Part shown: positions 55,876 through 64,000 of the stretch, piece after piece
Layout of the letters: every line of letters begins with the position of its first letter
Numbering within the stretch: position 1 is the first letter of the stretch
NCBI RefSeq assembly: GCF_009727155.1
Contig: NZ_WNWM01000002.1
Location: 4,588,001 to 4,652,000 of the forward strand
Direction of reading: 5' to 3'
Length of the DNA: 64,000 nt
DNA from: Pseudoduganella dura
GTDB lineage: Bacteria > Pseudomonadota > Gammaproteobacteria > Burkholderiales > Burkholderiaceae_D
Notes under the pieces: model-generated
Database searches by the model: none
Told to the model about the DNA's origin: nothing
What the model saw: the letters and a program-made list of their open reading frames with translations, nothing else
Translations under genes and position numbers: made by a program

Positions 55876-56595
55876 ATGGCCCAAGCTGCCCCCATTCCAG
55901 TCACGATCCTGGCGCCGGAATCGCTGCATCCCTCACTCTGGCTTGCATCGCAACTGGCGCAATCGCACGACCGCTGTGTCGACACCGGCCACCCGGTACT
56001 GTCCACCCAGCTGCCGGGGGGCGGGTGGCCGACGGGAACGCTGGTGGAATTGCTGCTGCAACAGCCGGGCATCGGCGAGATGCGCCTGCTGCAGCCGACC
56101 CTGGCGGCAATGGAGCGGCCCATCGTGCTGGTGCAACCACCGTATGCGCCGCAGGCGCTGGCGCTCGATGCGCTGGGCATTTCGCCCACGCGGCTGATCT
56201 GGATCCGCAACACGGGCAAAAGCACCGATGCGCTGTGGGCCGCCGAACAGATCCTGCGCAGCGGCTGCTGCGGTGCGTTGCTGCTGTGGCAGCAGCACGT
56301 GCGCAGCGAGGCACTGCGCCGGCTGCACCTGGCCGCGCAGAGCAGCGAGACCCTGTTCTGCCTGATGCGACCGCTGGCGGCGGCGCAGGATGCGTCGCCG
56401 GCACCGTTGCGGCTGGCGCTGCGGCCCGTCGCCGGCGGGCTGGAGATCGGTTTTGTCAAACGCCGGGGGCCGCAACGCGATGCGCCACTGTTCCTGCCCC
56501 TTACTCCTTCTTTACTGCAACGACATGCGCCTCTGGATCGGCCTGCACCTGCCCCGGCTCCCGCTCGAAGTGTTCTGCCCGAACTGGTCGGCTGA
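55876..56595 (+). CDS. imuA: Translesion DNA synthesis-associated protein ImuA
   Basis: A 239-residue RecA/SulA-like protein of the ImuA family. Conserved blocks are STQLPGGGWPTGTLVELLLQ, RPIVLVQPPYAPQALALDAL, LIWIRNTGKSTDALWAAEQI and CCGALLLWQQHVRSEALRRL. With ImuB and DnaE2 it forms the mutasome that performs error-prone synthesis after damage. It starts 20 bp after a LexA box. A weak leader with no obvious Shine-Dalgarno precedes the ATG. Its 3' end overlaps imuB by 71 bp in another frame, which is more than usual. Confidence 0.92.
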   Translation: MAQAAPIPVTILAPESLHPSLWLASQLAQSHDRCVDTGHPVLSTQLPGGGWPTGTLVELLLQQPGIGEMRLLQPTLAAMERPIVLVQPPYAPQALALDALGISPTRLIWIRNTGKSTDALWAAEQILRSGCCGALLLWQQHVRSEALRRLHLAAQSSETLFCLMRPLAAAQDASPAPLRLALRPVAGGLEIGFVKRRGPQRDAPLFLPLTPSLLQRHAPLDRPAPAPAPARSVLPELVG

Positions 56596-58000
56596 CACCT
56601 GCGCGGCGGTGCTGGACCATGAAGCGGTGCTGGCGGCATCGGATGACGCGCGGCGCGCCGGCGTGTTGCCAGGCATGCGCCGCGGCGGCGCGCTGATGAT
56701 GGCGCCGGATATACAGTTGCACGAACGCGCGGCGGAGCTGGAGGCGGAGGCGCTCCACGCGGTGGCGATGGCCATGCTGCAGTTCACGCCCCAGGTTGCC
56801 GAGGGCGAGGAAGCCACGTTGCTGATGGACGTGGGGGCGAGCCTGCGCCTGTTCGGCGGCATCCGCCGCCTGTGCGCGCTGGTGCGCGCGAGCCTGCGCA
56901 CGCTGGGCTTCACGGCCGTGCTGGGCGTGGCGCCCACGGCGCGCGGCGCGTGGCTGCTCGCGCGCGGCGGCGGCGGGCGGTCCCTGGCCATCGACAAGAT
57001 GACGCGCCGGCTGCACCAATTGCCGGCGAGCCTGCTGCCGCCGGCCCGCCCCTACATGACATGGCTCGAAGGCATCGGCTGCCTGTCGGTGGGGGACGTG
57101 GCGCGCCTGCCGCGGCCGGGCCTGCAGCGGCGCTGCGGCCGCGCACTGCTCGACGTGCTCGATGCGGCACTGGGCCACGCGGCCGAGATGTTCCGCTGGA
57201 TCGAGGCGCCGGCCACGTTCCACGCGAAGCTGGAACTGTTCGGGCGCATCGAGAACACGGACCTGCTGCTGGCCGGCGCGTGCCGGCTGCTGCAGCAGAT
57301 GACCGGCTGGCTGCACGCCCGCCAGATGGCCGTCGAACGCATCACGCTGCTGCTCGAACACGAACGGGGCAGGGTGGCGCGGCCGCCCACGCCGGTGGAG
57401 ATCGTGCTGGCCGAGGCGGTGTGGCGCGACGATCACCTGGTGCGCCTGCTGAAGGAACGGCTCGCCAAGCTGGCGCTAGAGGCGCCCGTCATCGGGCTGG
57501 TGCTGCAGGCACCGCATATCAAGCCGATGGCGCCGCTGTCGGATTCGCTGTTTCCCGAGCCGGGCGGGGGCGTGGAGGACCGGCGGCGCCTGTTCGAGCT
57601 GCTGGTGGCGCGGCTGGGGGCGGACAACGTGCTGCAGGCGGCGCCCAGGGCCGATTACCGACCCGAGCATGCGAACGCATGGGTGCCCGTGCAGCAGAAG
57701 CTGCGCGCGGCCGATATCCTGGCCTGCCTGCCGCCGAGCGGCCTGCCGCGACCCACCTGGCTATTGCCCAAGCCGATCGCGCTGCTGGTGCGCGACCACC
57801 GGCCGTTCTATTGCTCGCCGCTGCGGATGGTCTCGGCCGCCGAGCGCATCGAGGCGGGGTGGTGGAGCGATGTGCAGACCCGCGATTACTTCATCGCGCA
57901 GGGCGAGGACAATGCGCATTACTGGGTGTATCGCGAGCGGTTGCCGGGCGGGGACGAGGAGGCGGAGCCACGGTGGTATCTGCATGGGTTGTTTGGGTGA
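56525..58000 (+). CDS. imuB: Y-family polymerase-like protein ImuB
   Basis: A 491-residue Y-family polymerase homologue. It begins MRLWIGLHLPRLPLEVF; in active Y-family enzymes this position carries catalytic acids, and their absence is typical of ImuB, which acts as a hub binding the beta clamp, ImuA and DnaE2. Further blocks are TLLMDVGASLRLFGGIRRLC, LGVAPTARGAWLLAR, YMTWLEGIGCLSVGDVARLP and the C-terminal EAGWWSDVQTRDYFIAQGED. Several in-frame starts exist upstream inside imuA; this one fits the family N-terminus. No dnaE2 follows: the chromosome changes to gene-poor accessory DNA right after the stop. Confidence 0.93.
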   Translation: MRLWIGLHLPRLPLEVFCPNWSADTCAAVLDHEAVLAASDDARRAGVLPGMRRGGALMMAPDIQLHERAAELEAEALHAVAMAMLQFTPQVAEGEEATLLMDVGASLRLFGGIRRLCALVRASLRTLGFTAVLGVAPTARGAWLLARGGGGRSLAIDKMTRRLHQLPASLLPPARPYMTWLEGIGCLSVGDVARLPRPGLQRRCGRALLDVLDAALGHAAEMFRWIEAPATFHAKLELFGRIENTDLLLAGACRLLQQMTGWLHARQMAVERITLLLEHERGRVARPPTPVEIVLAEAVWRDDHLVRLLKERLAKLALEAPVIGLVLQAPHIKPMAPLSDSLFPEPGGGVEDRRRLFELLVARLGADNVLQAAPRADYRPEHANAWVPVQQKLRAADILACLPPSGLPRPTWLLPKPIALLVRDHRPFYCSPLRMVSAAERIEAGWWSDVQTRDYFIAQGEDNAHYWVYRERLPGGDEEAEPRWYLHGLFG

Positions 58001-59040
58001 GCTGGCGGGGCTGGCGTAAGTGCAGATGCTGGCTGACAGTTATCCGGCCATCCGTCTCGGTGACAACGTTATGGTAATCGGAATGTCGGGATCTGACCCG
58101 AGTCGAACATGTCGTAATAGTCCATGACTTTTTTATTCAGCAAGCTATTGTGCTGAGCTCTGCGACTTGGTACGGCCAGGAACGAGCTTTCACTCAAGAG
58201 AAAAAGGCATGAATACTAGGCAGCGACTGCTCGAGCTTGAAACGCCATTCGAGACCTATGATGGCGAGGCTCCTGTTCGCGATGTCATTCTTGCTGGGCT
58301 ACGGCCCCCGACGAGAAAATATTGGGTAGTGCTTGCACTTACTTGGATAGGAGCATAGAGCAGACCTTGACCGTGAAATTGTTGACCGTCTTGGGGAGAT
58401 TGTATCGGCATCACGACAAAGTGAGCAGCACACGCGTCACCGTGCATTGCGCCTCACCAAATCTTGGAATCGACAGCACTGAGCGTGAGCGCCCGGATGG
58501 GGCGACTCCTGCCGGTCATGACTGTAGATGAATTTTCCGGCTCGGCAACCTGGTATGCTGCAACAAGCGGCCGAGATTGACGATAACCGGGCACTCCAGT
58601 TCGATAATTCGGAGCTCTTTGCATCAATTATACGATGATGGCGTGATGAACAAAGTGCTCGAGCTCGACGATAGATTGCATCAAAGGAACAAGTGGCATT
58701 GCGCCAAGGTTTTTTTGTTGAAATACGCTTGCTCCATGCGATACAAGCGAATCATGGCAGACATCGATCATCCCAAAATTTAACAAGTCCCAGCCGCGCA
58801 ACTTGCTGTCATTAGGGAATTTAAACAGTGCCAAATCTCGTAGGCTGCCGGAGATTTCTTGAGAACCGCTGGATTAATCGCTGCCGGCTCGTTACCAGCA
58901 ATCCGGAAGCTGTCACAATAGCTGCCTCATTCAGCGCCAACATTACTGACGTCAAGCGCTCGCATATTTTGCCATGTAAAGCGCATCGGACTGCCTGTCT
59001 GGAACCTTCGCCGCCATCCTTGGTCTTTCGACTCTACTTT
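58001..59040. other. Gene-poor junction between imuB and the GTPase operon
   Basis: About 1 kb, visibly lower in G+C than the imuAB side, with only short frames on both strands. It holds one frameshifted remnant (58209-58482). A 68-codon frame at 58577-58783 has no supporting features. No integrase, transposase, tRNA or direct-repeat attachment site was recognised. It reads as degraded DNA at the edge of an acquired segment. Confidence 0.6.
58209..58482 (+). pseudogene. Frameshifted remnant of a small protein gene
   Basis: A frame starting MNTRQRLLELETPFETYDGE runs to KYWVVLALTWI and stops shortly after. If one G at 58350 is skipped, the sequence continues in the next frame as EHRADLDREIVDRLGEIVSA and then SRQSEQHTRHRALRLTKSWN before a TGA. 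The joined 90-residue product is uniformly charged and helical in pattern, unlike the nonsense in other frames, which suggests one ancestral gene with a +1 frameshift. I do not recognise the family. Confidence 0.4.
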
Positions 59041-59043
59041 CGG

Positions 59044-59071
59044 TTAAATTCTAGCAATCTCCCTGTATAAT
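59044..59071 (+). promoter_or_regulatory. Candidate promoter of the GTPase operon
   Basis: A perfect -10 TATAAT (59066-59071) lies 16 nt after TTAAAT (59044-59049), a weak -35. It would start transcription near 59078, giving a leader of about 130 nt before the first gene. Confidence 0.55.
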
Positions 59072-59156
59072 CTAACCACAACTTTGACTTGGGCGTAGAA
59101 GGACCTATAGCTCTTCTCTGCCTCGCTGGCGTAACTACATCGTCTGAAATGATCCA

Positions 59157-59184
59157 AGTTTGCATAGATATCATTATGCAAGCT
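59157..59184 (+). promoter_or_regulatory. Inverted repeat, candidate operator of the GTPase operon
   Basis: AGTTTGCATA-N8-TATGCAAGCT: 10-bp arms with one mismatch, around an AT-rich centre GATATCAT. It ends 25 bp before the first start codon and downstream of the TATAAT box, a position suited to a repressor, or to an mRNA hairpin near the ribosome-binding site. No regulator gene is seen in the window's part of the system. Confidence 0.55.
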
Positions 59185-59209
59185 AATTACCGCGTTCGGA
59201 AGGCTAGGG

Positions 59210-60520
59210 ATGGCAAAAGAATTTCTGTTAAATTTCCTTGAAGTCGGCATCATCGACCTCAGTGGTGACGATAGCAAACTAGAAAAATTGCGGGAGACTA
59301 CCAAAGATATATCTGCTGCACTGCGCAAGGCTGCCACGAAAACGTCTAGCCTCACGATGGTGGCGGCCGACCCAACAATTGCATCGACCGACCCAACAAT
59401 CGTCGAGGCCATGGAGGCTCTCAAGAAGCAATGGCAGACAATTTCCAATACTCACCGTAGCCCACCCGTTGCTATCCTGCGTGCCATCCTGCTCGACGCC
59501 ATCATGCAGGCAGCCCGCGCGGACGATGCGATCGCCGTAGCGTTTGTCAATACTGCGCGTAATGCCCTTGCTCATGCCCCAGTCGCCGATGAGGCGGACA
59601 TTTGGCGCACCGCTATCAATGAAATTGAAACTAAAGTCGATGCCCGTGCGGAGGCCGAATGGGAAACGCCAGAAATGATTTCGGTAGCCCCGTTGAAATT
59701 CGGGTCACCGAGCCAAGCTCCAGCAGAGTACCAGCCCCCTTCTATCAATCGAACAGAGATGCAGACAAAGATTTTTTCTGCGACAGGACCTTGGGGAGGG
59801 CAGGATCAAAATCCTTATCAGCCCAACCAAGGCCAGCATTGGGGGCAAACATTTGCCGAACGGATGACCGTCGTTATCGCAGAAGCGCTTGAGAGCATGG
59901 CCACCGATCTTGCACCAGTCCCTGTGGATTTGAGTAAGCCGTTGTCTACATTGGCCAGCGCGGTCTCGACTCATGTTGATGAGGCGCTGGCAAGTTTCAG
60001 CACCGCGACCGCTGGGCTGCAACGCCGTACAAACCTCCTATGGTGGAAGGAGGCAATGTATTCCCCCAGCGCTCATGCGAGTTACCAAGATCTGCCGCTG
60101 TTCGAAGCAGCCGCTCTGATGGCGCTCGACCTGCACGAGCAAGTGCCGACGTATTCGCCAGCGAGTGTCTCAGCCCTGCTGAAACAGACAATTCAGGCGC
60201 TTTCCGTAGGAGAAGGCGGTCAGGACGCTAGCCGACGCGAATTTGCGAGCCTAGTACAAGACGCAATCAGTTCCACACATATGGAAACATTCCGCTCGCT
60301 GGCAGCAGCCTATGCACCTGCTCCCAAGGGCCGTGGTCCTTTGCTGTCGCTTATTGGGAATCCTCAGGACGCTAAGGCTATCGAGCCAGCGCTCCTTCGC
60401 GCCTATGCCGGCGTGGACGCTTTAAAGGCCATGAGCGCATCCGAGTGGGGCACGCACCTGTTCCGAGAGCTGCAGGCCGCGCGCGCCACAAGCCTGACCA
60501 AGCGCGCCAAGAAGAAATAG
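59210..60520 (+). CDS. Predicted all-helical protein of a GTPase-associated conflict system (GASH-like)
   Basis: A 436-residue protein with no signal peptide, membrane segment or known catalytic motif. Composition and spacing point to an almost entirely alpha-helical fold: MAKEFLLNFLEVGIIDLSGD, ILRAILLDAIMQAARADDAI, a Pro/Gln-rich disordered break (about 170-215), then helices such as DLPLFEAAALMALDLHEQVP and VSALLKQTIQALSVGEGG. As first gene of an operon with two P-loop GTPases and a GAP1-N protein it fits what I recall as GASH, the GTPase-associated system all-helical protein; the name rests on context and length more than on motif. GGAAGG lies 6 nt before the ATG. The next gene is 7 bp away. 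Confidence 0.72.
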   Translation: MAKEFLLNFLEVGIIDLSGDDSKLEKLRETTKDISAALRKAATKTSSLTMVAADPTIASTDPTIVEAMEALKKQWQTISNTHRSPPVAILRAILLDAIMQAARADDAIAVAFVNTARNALAHAPVADEADIWRTAINEIETKVDARAEAEWETPEMISVAPLKFGSPSQAPAEYQPPSINRTEMQTKIFSATGPWGGQDQNPYQPNQGQHWGQTFAERMTVVIAEALESMATDLAPVPVDLSKPLSTLASAVSTHVDEALASFSTATAGLQRRTNLLWWKEAMYSPSAHASYQDLPLFEAAALMALDLHEQVPTYSPASVSALLKQTIQALSVGEGGQDASRREFASLVQDAISSTHMETFRSLAAAYAPAPKGRGPLLSLIGNPQDAKAIEPALLRAYAGVDALKAMSASEWGTHLFRELQAARATSLTKRAKKK

Positions 60521-60527
60521 GTGGTTC

Positions 60528-61475
60528 ATGGACGGCTGCCGACACCCGCACTGTTTTGCGGACGACAACATCACCTGCACGCTTGGCCACCTCAGGAAGG
60601 ACCAGTGCCCTGAGTGGAAAGGCTCGAATGATGCTCCCGCTTCCGCGGTGCCTGAAACTGGCCAGACGCTCCTGCCATGGAGTGGTTCAGCCATGGGGCC
60701 AAACGACCTTAATTTTCTCAGCGGAGTCGGGAAGCCAATTACGGTTGCCATCGTCGGACCGGAGAGCGCGGGCAAGACCACTATCTTAGGTGCGTTCTAC
60801 CAGCTCCTTTGGCAAAACAAACTGACCACCAATGCACATAGATTTAGCAATTCCTATACCCTTAATGGATGGGAAGCGGTTGCGTCCGCCCTGCGCTGGA
60901 AGCCAGGTATCCCCCCAAGCTTCCCGCCACATACGCCTAGTAGCGAAGCGCGCGCGCCCGGCATGCTGCATCTCGGCTTCCGTCTCGAGAATGGTTCTCT
61001 TCGTGACTTCATTTTTGCCGATGCGCCTGGTGAATGGTTTCAGAAATGGGCAATCGACGAGCGCGCGGCCGACGCCCAAGGTGCCACTTGGATCGCGCGA
61101 CACGCAGATATCACCCTGCTGATCGCCGATCGCGAAGCGCTCTCCGGCCCCAAGCTCGGCACCGCGCGCAACGACTTTCAATTGCTCGCGCAACGCACGA
61201 TCACTAACGCCCATGGTCGCTCCATCGCGTTGGTTTGGACCAAGGGCGATCTATCCGTAAAACCCGTCTTGGAAACCAAGATCCGAAGTATGGTTGCCTC
61301 GGTGTCGCCTGCGGTTCCAGAGTTTACCGTAAGCGTCCACGGGGCTGAAGAAGGCGCCGCTGACGGCTTCCGCCAGCTATTCGCGTGGATCCTTGCGGCG
61401 ACACGTCCGGGGATAATTTTGCCAGCGACTGACGGACCTATGCATGATCCGCTTTTCCGAATTGGCAGGAGATAG
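60528..61475 (+). CDS. TRAFAC-clade GTPase of a double-GTPase system, with N-terminal Cys/His cluster
   Basis: A 315-residue P-loop GTPase. The G1 loop is VAIVGPESAGKTTILGAF (K83, T84), G3 is FIFADAPGEWFQKW (D165-x-x-G168) and G4 is a variant, LVWTKGDLS (T238-K239-G-D241), which should still recognise guanine. Before the domain, residues 4-27 form a putative zinc knuckle: C4, H6, H8, C9, C17, H21, C27. A flexible linker follows. The adjacent gene encodes a second, different GTPase. Such pairs are called double-GTPase systems in comparative work I remember; whether this is type 1 or 2 needs a profile search. It follows the helical protein gene closely and is presumably co-expressed. Confidence 0.8.
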   Translation: MDGCRHPHCFADDNITCTLGHLRKDQCPEWKGSNDAPASAVPETGQTLLPWSGSAMGPNDLNFLSGVGKPITVAIVGPESAGKTTILGAFYQLLWQNKLTTNAHRFSNSYTLNGWEAVASALRWKPGIPPSFPPHTPSSEARAPGMLHLGFRLENGSLRDFIFADAPGEWFQKWAIDERAADAQGATWIARHADITLLIADREALSGPKLGTARNDFQLLAQRTITNAHGRSIALVWTKGDLSVKPVLETKIRSMVASVSPAVPEFTVSVHGAEEGAADGFRQLFAWILAATRPGIILPATDGPMHDPLFRIGRR

Positions 61476-61478
61476 AAA

Positions 61479-62315
61479 TTGGCAGAACAACACACCATCT
61501 TGCTGGTCGGTGAATCCGGCGTAGGCAAAACTCACTACGGCGCCCAGTTCTTGAAGCGCCTTTCGGTCGAGACCTGCGCTCTCAAGGCAGCCAATGCGCC
61601 GTCGAACGTAACGCCATTTGCTACGGCGCTCAGTTGCCTGACCGAGGGGCTGGCAACCCACCATACGCCGGCGGATTCTTACGTCGAGAGCGTCTGGCCA
61701 ATTCGGGATGAGACCGGCCGCGTCGCAGAGCTAGTGTGGCCCGATTATGGTGGCGAACAAGTGCGCAATCTTGCCGTCCAGCGTCAAATTCCAGAGGCCT
61801 GGCGGGAGCGCGTGCTCAGCGCTACTGATTGGGTCTTGCTGATTCGACCGCACTCGATTCGCAAGGAAGATGACCTGTTTTCCCGGCCTTTGCAGAAACT
61901 GGGCAAGGTGGAGCCGCAGCCGACGGCAGCGGTCCACAGTATCTCGGACCAAGCCAGGATGCTTGAGCTCTTGCAAATCCTGCTTTATCTGGGGCAGTTT
62001 CATCTGGACAAACCGCTTCGGAGACCTGGCTTGACCATATTGCTGACCTGCTGGGACGAAGTCAACGACCCCCGCGTCCCTGCCGATGTTATCGCAGATC
62101 AGTTGCCGATGCTGTGGTCCTTTGTGCATAGTAACTGGGCGACGCCCACTGTAATGGGGTTGTCCGCTCTCGGGCGCGCGCTCAGCACGGAAGACGCAGA
62201 CGTGGAATTCGCCAGTGTCGGACCAGAGGACTTCGGTTACGTGATACTTCCCGACGGTCAACAGAGCTCGGACATCACCCTGCCAATCCAACGTCTTATG
62301 AGCGGGCGAAGCTGA
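61479..62315 (+). CDS. Second GTPase of the double-GTPase system
   Basis: A 278-residue P-loop protein starting at TTG, supported by AGGAGA 6 nt upstream and by the 3-bp distance to the preceding stop. G1 is ILLVGESGVGKTHYGAQFL (K17, T18), G3 is LVWPDYGGEQVRNL (D89-x-G-G), and the G4 position is LLTCWDEVND (T190-C-W-D193), which departs from NKxD, so nucleotide specificity is uncertain. A segment GLSALGRALS resembles a G5 loop. Its DYGGE switch and short N-terminus distinguish it from the neighbouring GTPase. Probably the two form a hetero-oligomeric switch; inference. The GAP1-N gene begins 5 bp later. Confidence 0.78.
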   Translation: MAEQHTILLVGESGVGKTHYGAQFLKRLSVETCALKAANAPSNVTPFATALSCLTEGLATHHTPADSYVESVWPIRDETGRVAELVWPDYGGEQVRNLAVQRQIPEAWRERVLSATDWVLLIRPHSIRKEDDLFSRPLQKLGKVEPQPTAAVHSISDQARMLELLQILLYLGQFHLDKPLRRPGLTILLTCWDEVNDPRVPADVIADQLPMLWSFVHSNWATPTVMGLSALGRALSTEDADVEFASVGPEDFGYVILPDGQQSSDITLPIQRLMSGRS

Positions 62316-62320
62316 GCGAT

Positions 62321-64000
62321 ATGCGCGTGGAACAAGCGATTTATGGTGAGGTTGCCCGCCGTGGGCATGGGCTCAGGGCCGCCAGTCCAAATGCGCTGAT
62401 GGCGGAGGGTATCGCATCGAAGCTCGACCTGCCTGACACCATCCCGCCCGGCGATCTGAACTGGGGAAAGTTTGTCCGCGGGTTCCCTCTCCCAGATTAC
62501 TACGTTCTGGCTCGTACTTTTTTGGACCCAATGGCGTCGCGTGGCGGCATGGTGCTAACTCACGCTCTCTTCATCCCATTGGACGAAATGTGCGCCGTAA
62601 GCAGTCTGTCCCCACTCTTCGCCAAGCTACACTCAACCGCTGCAGAGTGCATAGGACCGCTGGAATACCTCCAGGTGGAAACATCGAGCGGAACTCCAGT
62701 AGCGCCTGCCGATCTGATTGGTACTGCTAATGCGTTGACGGCCGGCGGGCCTGGCCCAGTGGTCAGGGTTGGTGTTGACGGTTTCGAAGAGCTGATTGAC
62801 GCCTTGTGGCACAATCTCTGGCCTTCGATTAGGCGCTCCTTCGCGTTTAGGCTCAGCTTCGGCCCGAACGACGTTATGGTGCAGCCTTCTCCGGTACTCG
62901 TCTGCACGCCCGCGCAGCGGCAAGGTCAATGGACTAAGCATCCCATCGTCAAGCCTAGTGATCTTGTGCCTGCAAACGAGTCGGCGAAGATTCTAATTGG
63001 TCAACGCAGCATTGCGCCCATTCTGGCGCTGGCCAACGACCTAGGCGTGGACGTTCAGTCTTTCAAAGATTTGGGTCGGTTGGAGCGCTTGGAGGCTTTA
63101 TTTCCTACTGCCAACACGTTCGACGCGCTCCTTTCTGTCATACGCATGGTTGATGGAATTTCGAGTCAAAAGGATTGTGGCGAGCGATTGAAGAACCAGC
63201 TCATCGATCGCTTCTCGGCCGTACTGCCCAGTGCCCAACCTAGCCAGCTACTGCAGCTGAGGAATTTGGATTTCGCAGGCTTCCCTAGCTCAGCGGCCGT
63301 ATGGAAGGCAATGGCACAAGTTGTCGGCGATCTCGATTTCGAGCCCCTGGACGATTTAAGCGCGATGGAATTGGTCACTGCCTCCGTTGATAGCGATCGA
63401 GCAATTGCGCCTTGGCGCGAAGCCGCTAGCGCCGGGCTAGGTATTGCTGCTCACCGTACTAAACCTACCGTCTACAAAGCGATCTGGAGATGGGCCAAGG
63501 CGAACTCCAAAGCGTTCTTCACGGCCCTCGGCGTGCTGCCAGATGACTCAGAAATAGAACTGCGGCTGGTTCAGGTTGCCCCAAAGGCTTTGGCCGTCCT
63601 TAACCAGGAAGCACTGCTCTGTGCTTTGGTGCGAAAGCGCTGGTTGACTGCCCACGGTGCCGCCTTGGGCGCAATTGCGCCGCCCCTGGAAGCCGTACAG
63701 CGTCAACTGGCTGCGGAAGTCGACCAGACGTCAAGTCAAGGTATCCGAGCGGCCATAGGGAATGCTACCCCCGCGCAGGTGCTGGAATGTGCAGTCAAGC
63801 TGAAAGATGCTCGACTCGTAGATCTGTGCGCTGAGCTGGCTTGGAAATGCCCAGAGATGTTGGCTGATATTCGCTGCGAGGAGATTACTGAGCAGAAGAT
63901 CTGGGCGGCAGCAATTTTCAAACAGCCGGCACTATGGAACTCTCCTCGAAACGCAGCCGATGTGCGCAACACCGTTCTGACGCGCCTCGAGAGTGGGCAT
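62321..64000 (+). CDS. GTPase-associated protein 1 (GAP1-N domain), cut by window edge
   Basis: An open frame of 560 codons running off the right end with no stop. It begins MRVEQAIYGEVARRGHGLRA, and the QAIYGEV...GHxLxAxS start is what I recall as the signature of the GAP1-N1 domain. The next 100 residues include FVRGFPLPDYYVLARTFLDP and RGGMVLTHALFIPLDEM, a mixed beta domain; beyond about residue 230 the sequence becomes helical (APILALANDLGVDVQSFKDL). GAP1 proteins are thought to modulate the partner GTPases and carry variable C-terminal effector-associated regions; that part lies outside the window. Codon use and G+C are lower than in the core genes. Family name from memory, moderately sure. 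Confidence 0.75.
   Translation, partial: MRVEQAIYGEVARRGHGLRAASPNALMAEGIASKLDLPDTIPPGDLNWGKFVRGFPLPDYYVLARTFLDPMASRGGMVLTHALFIPLDEMCAVSSLSPLFAKLHSTAAECIGPLEYLQVETSSGTPVAPADLIGTANALTAGGPGPVVRVGVDGFEELIDALWHNLWPSIRRSFAFRLSFGPNDVMVQPSPVLVCTPAQRQGQWTKHPIVKPSDLVPANESAKILIGQRSIAPILALANDLGVDVQSFKDLGRLERLEALFPTANTFDALLSVIRMVDGISSQKDCGERLKNQLIDRFSAVLPSAQPSQLLQLRNLDFAGFPSSAAVWKAMAQVVGDLDFEPLDDLSAMELVTASVDSDRAIAPWREAASAGLGIAAHRTKPTVYKAIWRWAKANSKAFFTALGVLPDDSEIELRLVQVAPKALAVLNQEALLCALVRKRWLTAHGAALGAIAPPLEAVQRQLAAEVDQTSSQGIRAAIGNATPAQVLECAVKLKDARLVDLCAELAWKCPEMLADIRCEEITEQKIWAAAIFKQPALWNSPRNAADVRNTVLTRLESGH

Follow-up and report, generated by a model that had tools for sequence, protein, structure and literature searches.

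GTPase-centric conflict systems were predicted by Kaur et al. in 2020 (PMC7159879). In the accessible part of that paper, the GAP1-N1 type comprises GASH, GAP1 and a pair of DO-GTPases, one of which carries a zinc ribbon; caspases are among the named effectors, and the role in immunity is put forward as a prediction. Effectors in this type vary and are linked to it by fusion or through EAD1 or GAAD. A further paper (PMC8195603) extends the use of EAD1 to other systems; the term 'GAP1' does not occur in the portion available. No experiments on GAP1-N1 systems were found in the literature searched, and this absence is a weak one, as it was judged from listings that covered few subscription papers and no preprints; among the papers listed, PMC11237479 contains the term 'DO-GTPase' once. 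This article examines an operon at the right-hand end of a 64,000-nucleotide stretch of Pseudoduganella dura DNA (contig NZ_WNWM01000002.1, positions 4,588,001 to 4,652,000), referred to as the window. The window (G000:C2:4588001-4652000; G and L numbers denote genomes and loci) is part of a 6.95 Mb genome. Judged by its sequence, the operon is a GAP1-N1 GTPase-centric conflict system of the EAD1-coupled caspase form in the features tested. We consider it likely that it represents an acquired, complete operon of this type, which works in the response to invaders by recruiting its caspase effector.

Operon layout and domain composition

The operon is compact (6.8 kb) and contains five genes, the last of which was found by reading the sequence past the end of the window. 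Window positions correspond to L002 positions plus 57000.

59210..60520, + strand: GASH, an all-helical protein of 436 amino acids (Pfam PF19994, E = 3.5e-100, residues 7-425)
60528..61475, + strand: DO-GTPase2, 315 amino acids, with an N-terminal zinc-ribbon-like four-cysteine motif (Pfam PF19993, E = 7.1e-58)
61479..62315, + strand: DO-GTPase1, 278 amino acids, TTG start (Pfam PF19975, E = 3.2e-74)
62321..64813 (L002:5321-7813), + strand: GAP1, 830 amino acids, running past the window end at 64000 (Pfam GAP1-N1 and EAD1)
64830-65984 (L002:7830-8984), + strand: caspase-EAD1 gene, an open reading frame (ORF) of 384 amino acids beyond the window (Peptidase_C14 and EAD1)

The first four genes are separated by 7, 3 and 5 bp, exactly as described in the initial annotation. 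Its proposal of a four-gene operon holds for these genes and ended too early, in that the caspase gene, which follows GAP1 on the same strand after a gap of 16 bp, belongs to the operon too. The identities suggested for the proteins (GASH, double-GTPase 1/2 and GAP1-N) are borne out by Pfam profile searches far above the cut-offs, including those of the first and fourth proteins; GAP1-N1 reaches E = 2.3e-24 with the part of GAP1 inside the window alone. An effector had been expected in the GAP1 C-terminus or downstream. It is found downstream, as the caspase, which is linked to the GAP1 C-terminus by the EAD1 domain that both possess.

All five frames are open, with lengths that match those of relatives, and the P-loops and the catalytic dyad are retained. 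Just 3' of the caspase gene lies a G+C-rich hairpin with a T run (L002:8990-9055; z = -3.77, none of 200 shuffles as stable). A pattern scan did not list this terminator-like hairpin; it probably marks the end of the operon.

The two GTPases

Two paralogous DO-GTPases adjoin GAP1. The P-loops, G3 and G4-like motifs that had been noticed at the outset are present in both, namely GPESAGKTT (G1), DAPGEW (G3) and TKGD (G4) in DO-GTPase2, and GESGVGKT, DYGGEQ and the G4-like TCWD in DO-GTPase1. The conserved glutamate of the G3/Walker B motif was followed by pattern search across 18 loci; it appears as D[AT]PGEW in every DO-GTPase2 and as D-Y-[GA]-G-E in 16 of the 18 DO-GTPase1 sequences, the pattern having missed L031 and L053. 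The four-cysteine pattern at the N-terminus of DO-GTPase2, a putative zinc ribbon at the level of the motif, is found in 18/18 loci. A TKxD-like G4 was recognised by pattern in 17 of the DO-GTPase2 sequences, and the eighteenth (L053) reads TKSD.

GAP1: domains, predicted structure and rate of evolution

With the full-length protein, the GAP1-N1 profile (PF20012) matches residues 2-101 (E = 4.2e-24; 85.2 bits, cut-off 27), and EAD1 occupies residues 741-823 (Pfam, E = 1.6e-7, above cut-off). The only other Pfam match in GAP1 is a TPR match below cut-off. In this type of system, GAP1 is expected to consist of three globular domains, N, M and C. A structural model (mean predicted local distance difference test score, pLDDT, 74.2; predicted template modelling score, pTM, 0.47) shows strands in an N-terminus that is poorly predicted, then a solenoid of helices and a C-terminus that is helical too. 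The middle of the protein, from about residue 230 to 735, is thus predicted to form an alpha-solenoid, a feature newly described here.

A further new observation is that this middle part is the fastest-evolving large region, with the protease domain the slowest. Among 13 close loci, the median identity to the window protein is 46.3% for GAP1 residues 291-560 and 48.3% for residues 561-735, with segment borders (102-290, 291-560, 561-735) chosen by the analyst. The caspase domain, at 77.5% identity, is the slowest-evolving segment compared. Neither this comparison nor that of EAD1 domains (see below) included the divergent loci L039-L042 and L046-L051, or L029 and L052, in which GAP1 is split (in L029 GASH as well), or L043, which was treated as a duplicate of the L017 record; L021 and L025 were kept with their short GASH. 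One comparison of relatives covered 120 of 390 GAP1 and 120 of 751 caspase relatives, in lists that were not matched to each other.

A Leptospira phage protein (KF114878.1:17000-18910) matches GAP1 residues 193-818 with 20.5% identity (E = 1e-16). This may reflect mere helical-repeat likeness, or the protein may be a phage-borne relative of GAP1.

The caspase and its EAD1 domain

The fifth protein combines a caspase domain (PF00656, Peptidase_C14; 2.8e-20) with an EAD1 domain of its own (7.4e-10, above cut-off). The motifs FFSGHGG and IDACHAGG contain the catalytic His-Cys dyad, and both residues are kept in all 18 loci compared (the Cys of L053 was missed by the pattern and recognised separately). 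Because most caspase relatives among the matches listed are near 366 amino acids in length, translation may in fact begin a few codons downstream of the start of the 384-residue ORF. In the whole genome, EAD1 was matched in just two proteins, GAP1 and the caspase, and no third was found at E <= 0.01. Since EAD1 is matched only in these two, it is unlikely that a further effector is recruited in trans through this domain.

In the caspase of Cupriavidus sp. IDO (L019:5881-7029), EAD1 similarity breaks down over the final third, suggesting a frameshift or an assembly error. At L050:4477-7687, the protein after an EAD1-bearing GAP1 has 220 amino acids, hydrophobic stretches and no Pfam or EAD1 match, and is perhaps a membrane effector.

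Insertion site

The operon and the DNA in front of it lie between two host genes. To the left, these features are found in the window:

56390..58000, + strand: imuB-like Y-family polymerase gene, a host gene outside the system (Pfam IMS, 1.1e-9)
58001..59209, no strand assigned: left-hand portion of the insert, low in GC (0.503), in which the longest ORF wholly contained has 80 amino acids

The imuB-like gene stands behind imuA (NCBIfam, 7.7e-66), and the right neighbour encodes an alpha/beta hydrolase. An acquired, low-GC locus had been proposed initially, and the composition agrees: GC is 0.50-0.57 in the insert (operon 0.574, preceding 1.2 kb 0.503) against 0.66-0.71 in the flanks (0.71 at the imuB end, 0.656 on the right side).

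imuB and the hydrolase gene are neighbours, in unchanged order, in 24 of the 31 genus genomes searched (query included). The spacing between the two matches is 12-343 bp in 16 of these 24, where the junction is nearly empty, and 891-8444 bp in the other eight, one of which is the query. Of the remaining seven genomes, two are arranged differently, and in five the hydrolase search found no match at E 1e-30. In alignments with nine relatives (of 11 fetched; L059 and L060 were left out), similarity breaks off at the imuB end or slightly ahead of it (L002 957-1002) and returns at the start of the hydrolase gene (L002 9431-9448). Elsewhere, the same junction holds a PAS-GGDEF-EAL protein, an AraC-type regulator, two genes of which one encodes a RES domain (G038), a redoxin, or low-GC fragments (G027). 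The imuB-hydrolase junction (window 58000 to 66442; L002:1000-9442) varies in content across the genus, and the simplest interpretation is that this lineage acquired the cassette. A 49-amino-acid fragment at 58209-58355 has no Pfam match.

Distribution

GAP1 relatives were found at 15 further genome loci, all with the same five-gene order (15/15). The search used the patterns GGMV[LV]THA and ELWSRAGGK, one of which lies within EAD1, so that it favours this subtype. Among these loci, GASH is short in L021 and L025, and both GASH and GAP1 are split in L029. The family genomes G210 and G162 (L044, L045) share the gene order as well.

Homologues are not core genes present in all relatives. Of 74 genomes of the genus, two have GASH; the other carrier, G063, has a different effector, and its locus (L051; G063:C1:1802000-1817000) is of another GAP1-N1 subtype, with a metallophosphoesterase-GAAD gene before GASH. 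With the query counted in each case, GAP1-N1 is found in 8/294 family genomes, 6/399 order genomes (five over the cut-off) and 3/369 class genomes; among the order and class matches, G747 falls short of the cut-off and G352 is located at the end of a contig. The eight family genomes divide evenly between the EAD1-caspase form (G000, G194, G210, G162) and the GAAD form (G228, G222, G185, G249).

A GAP1 relative is present in 8 of 72,556 plasmid records, and five of the eight plasmids are predicted to be conjugative. The two that were opened hold the whole set in the same order, one from Mesorhizobium and one from Enterobacter, the latter with GAP1 split. Public annotation of these two copies names GASH, an EAD1-containing protein and a caspase family protein, and leaves the GTPases as 'hypothetical'. 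The copy with the split GAP1, L052 (NZ_CP110879.1), sits on an IncHI2A plasmid that is predicted to be conjugative, with an integrase and an IS3 transposase on one side of the set and transfer genes on the other.

Proposed mode of action and alternatives

In the proposed mechanism, the alpha-solenoid of GAP1, perhaps together with GASH, would sense the invader or the damage it causes. The DO-GTPase1/DO-GTPase2 pair would serve as a nucleotide-controlled switch that sets the threshold. Once activated, GAP1 would expose or cluster its C-terminal EAD1 and so recruit the caspase via the caspase's own EAD1. The resulting proximity would activate the His-Cys protease, proteins of the cell or the phage would be cut, and the infected cell would be stopped. 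In favour of this picture are the matches of all five proteins to the defining families, the EAD1 domain in both GAP1 and the caspase, the constant gene order, the conserved caspase dyad, the patchy distribution with a clean insertion, the exchange of the effector for metallophosphoesterase-GAAD in related loci, and the contrast between the fast-evolving solenoid and the slow caspase domain; PMC7159879 describes this system and its coupling.

Several points weigh against this picture. Defence, protease activity and EAD1 binding are predictions, and PADLOC matched neither GASH nor the GTPases nor GAP1 convincingly, giving only a generic hit for the caspase. The G4-like motif of DO-GTPase1 is [ST]CWD in 18/18 loci, without the classical lysine; it is called G4 from its pattern and position. 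The pTM of the GAP1 model is 0.47, and the N-terminus is poorly modelled. Fast evolution of the solenoid can equally reflect weak constraint, and the short linker of the caspase evolves faster still (35.0% identity). Finally, like-to-like matching would make the EAD1 domains of one locus more alike than mismatched ones. In 18 loci, own pairs share 36.65% identity and non-own pairs 36.66%, and 0.53 of the permutations reach or exceed the observed value; in 14 close loci, own pairs share 36.98%, the permutation mean is 37.15%, and the corresponding fraction is 0.76. This test, which had no positive control, speaks against pair-specific co-evolution and not against binding, a result that is also new here. 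GAP1-EAD1 and caspase-EAD1 form two separate classes with a common core.

These data allow a more specific proposal, which is tentative and, taken as a whole, rather doubtful. EAD1 might act as a two-sided plug and not as a self-matching tag, the GAP1 and caspase types being fixed classes without pair-specific matching; any caspase-EAD1 would then fit any GAP1-EAD1, and specificity for the invader would reside in the fast-evolving alpha-solenoid. Jointly with this, DO-GTPase1, with [ST]CWD in place of [NT]KxD as its G4-like motif, might be the member of a heterodimeric switch whose nucleotide preference has changed.

It is possible, though we do not favour it, that the caspase is a signalling protease instead of the killer: recruited by GAP1, it would cut another component, such as GASH, GAP1 or itself, or else a host protein acting as the true effector. 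The high conservation of the caspase domain would be expected with a fixed substrate, and peptidases of related systems are in part signalling components that release effectors, according to the accessible text of PMC7159879. On the other hand, no other effector gene was recognised in the operon, the terminator-like hairpin follows directly on the caspase gene, and the genome holds no third EAD1 match. A function in competition or addiction among mobile elements (maintaining plasmids or islands, or excluding other elements), as opposed to defence against phages, appears unlikely. It would fit the insertion of the cassette and the presence of relatives on plasmids, most of them predicted conjugative; yet the ORF lists of this genome, in which not all small ORFs were scanned, show no recognisable recombinase or replicon gene in the interval from imuB to the hydrolase gene. 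That the operon is a decayed, inactive remnant is very improbable. The adjoining 1.2 kb of low-GC DNA before GASH, with short ORFs only, might hint at this, as might short or split genes in some relatives (L021, L025, L029, L052), but the five genes themselves retain open frames of relative-like length, P-loops and the catalytic dyad. Caspase recruitment in the response to invaders remains the preferred explanation.

Comparison with known systems

The LypABC CARD-NLR-like system of Caulobacter (PMC13236601, as far as accessible) shares the logic of NTPase-controlled proteolysis: it combines a switch NTPase with peptidases and is toxic when overproduced. It differs in using an ATPase in place of a GTPase, in its recruiting domain, and in serving the release of gene transfer agents.

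The operon's own system also occurs in a metallophosphoesterase-GAAD form, which has GAP1-N1 (6/6 tested) and GASH (3/3 tested) and whose DO-GTPases are matched weakly by phmmer. Here the effector gene comes first, preceding GASH in 9/9 tested loci from genus, family and order (L039-L042, L046-L049, L051); coupling is by GAAD, and none of the six GAP1 proteins tested (L039, L041, L042, L046, L047, L051) has an EAD1 match. In these loci, the position of the effector thus differs with the coupling: it is the first gene with GAAD and the last with EAD1.

With the system of Kaur et al. (PMC7159879), the operon shares GASH, GAP1-N1, a pair of DO-GTPases of which one has a zinc-ribbon-like N-terminus, and EAD1 on both GAP1 and the downstream caspase; no essential difference is seen from the accessible text, and this copy is complete and ordinary for its kind. 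As a complete and compact example of a predicted immunity class in which GTPases would control a caspase, it provides a clean test case, with clear insertion boundaries, a named effector that has both catalytic residues, and testable claims on sensing and recruitment. The details added here to the description in PMC7159879 are the predicted GAP1 solenoid, the rates of evolution per domain, the EAD1 pairing test and the insertion site.

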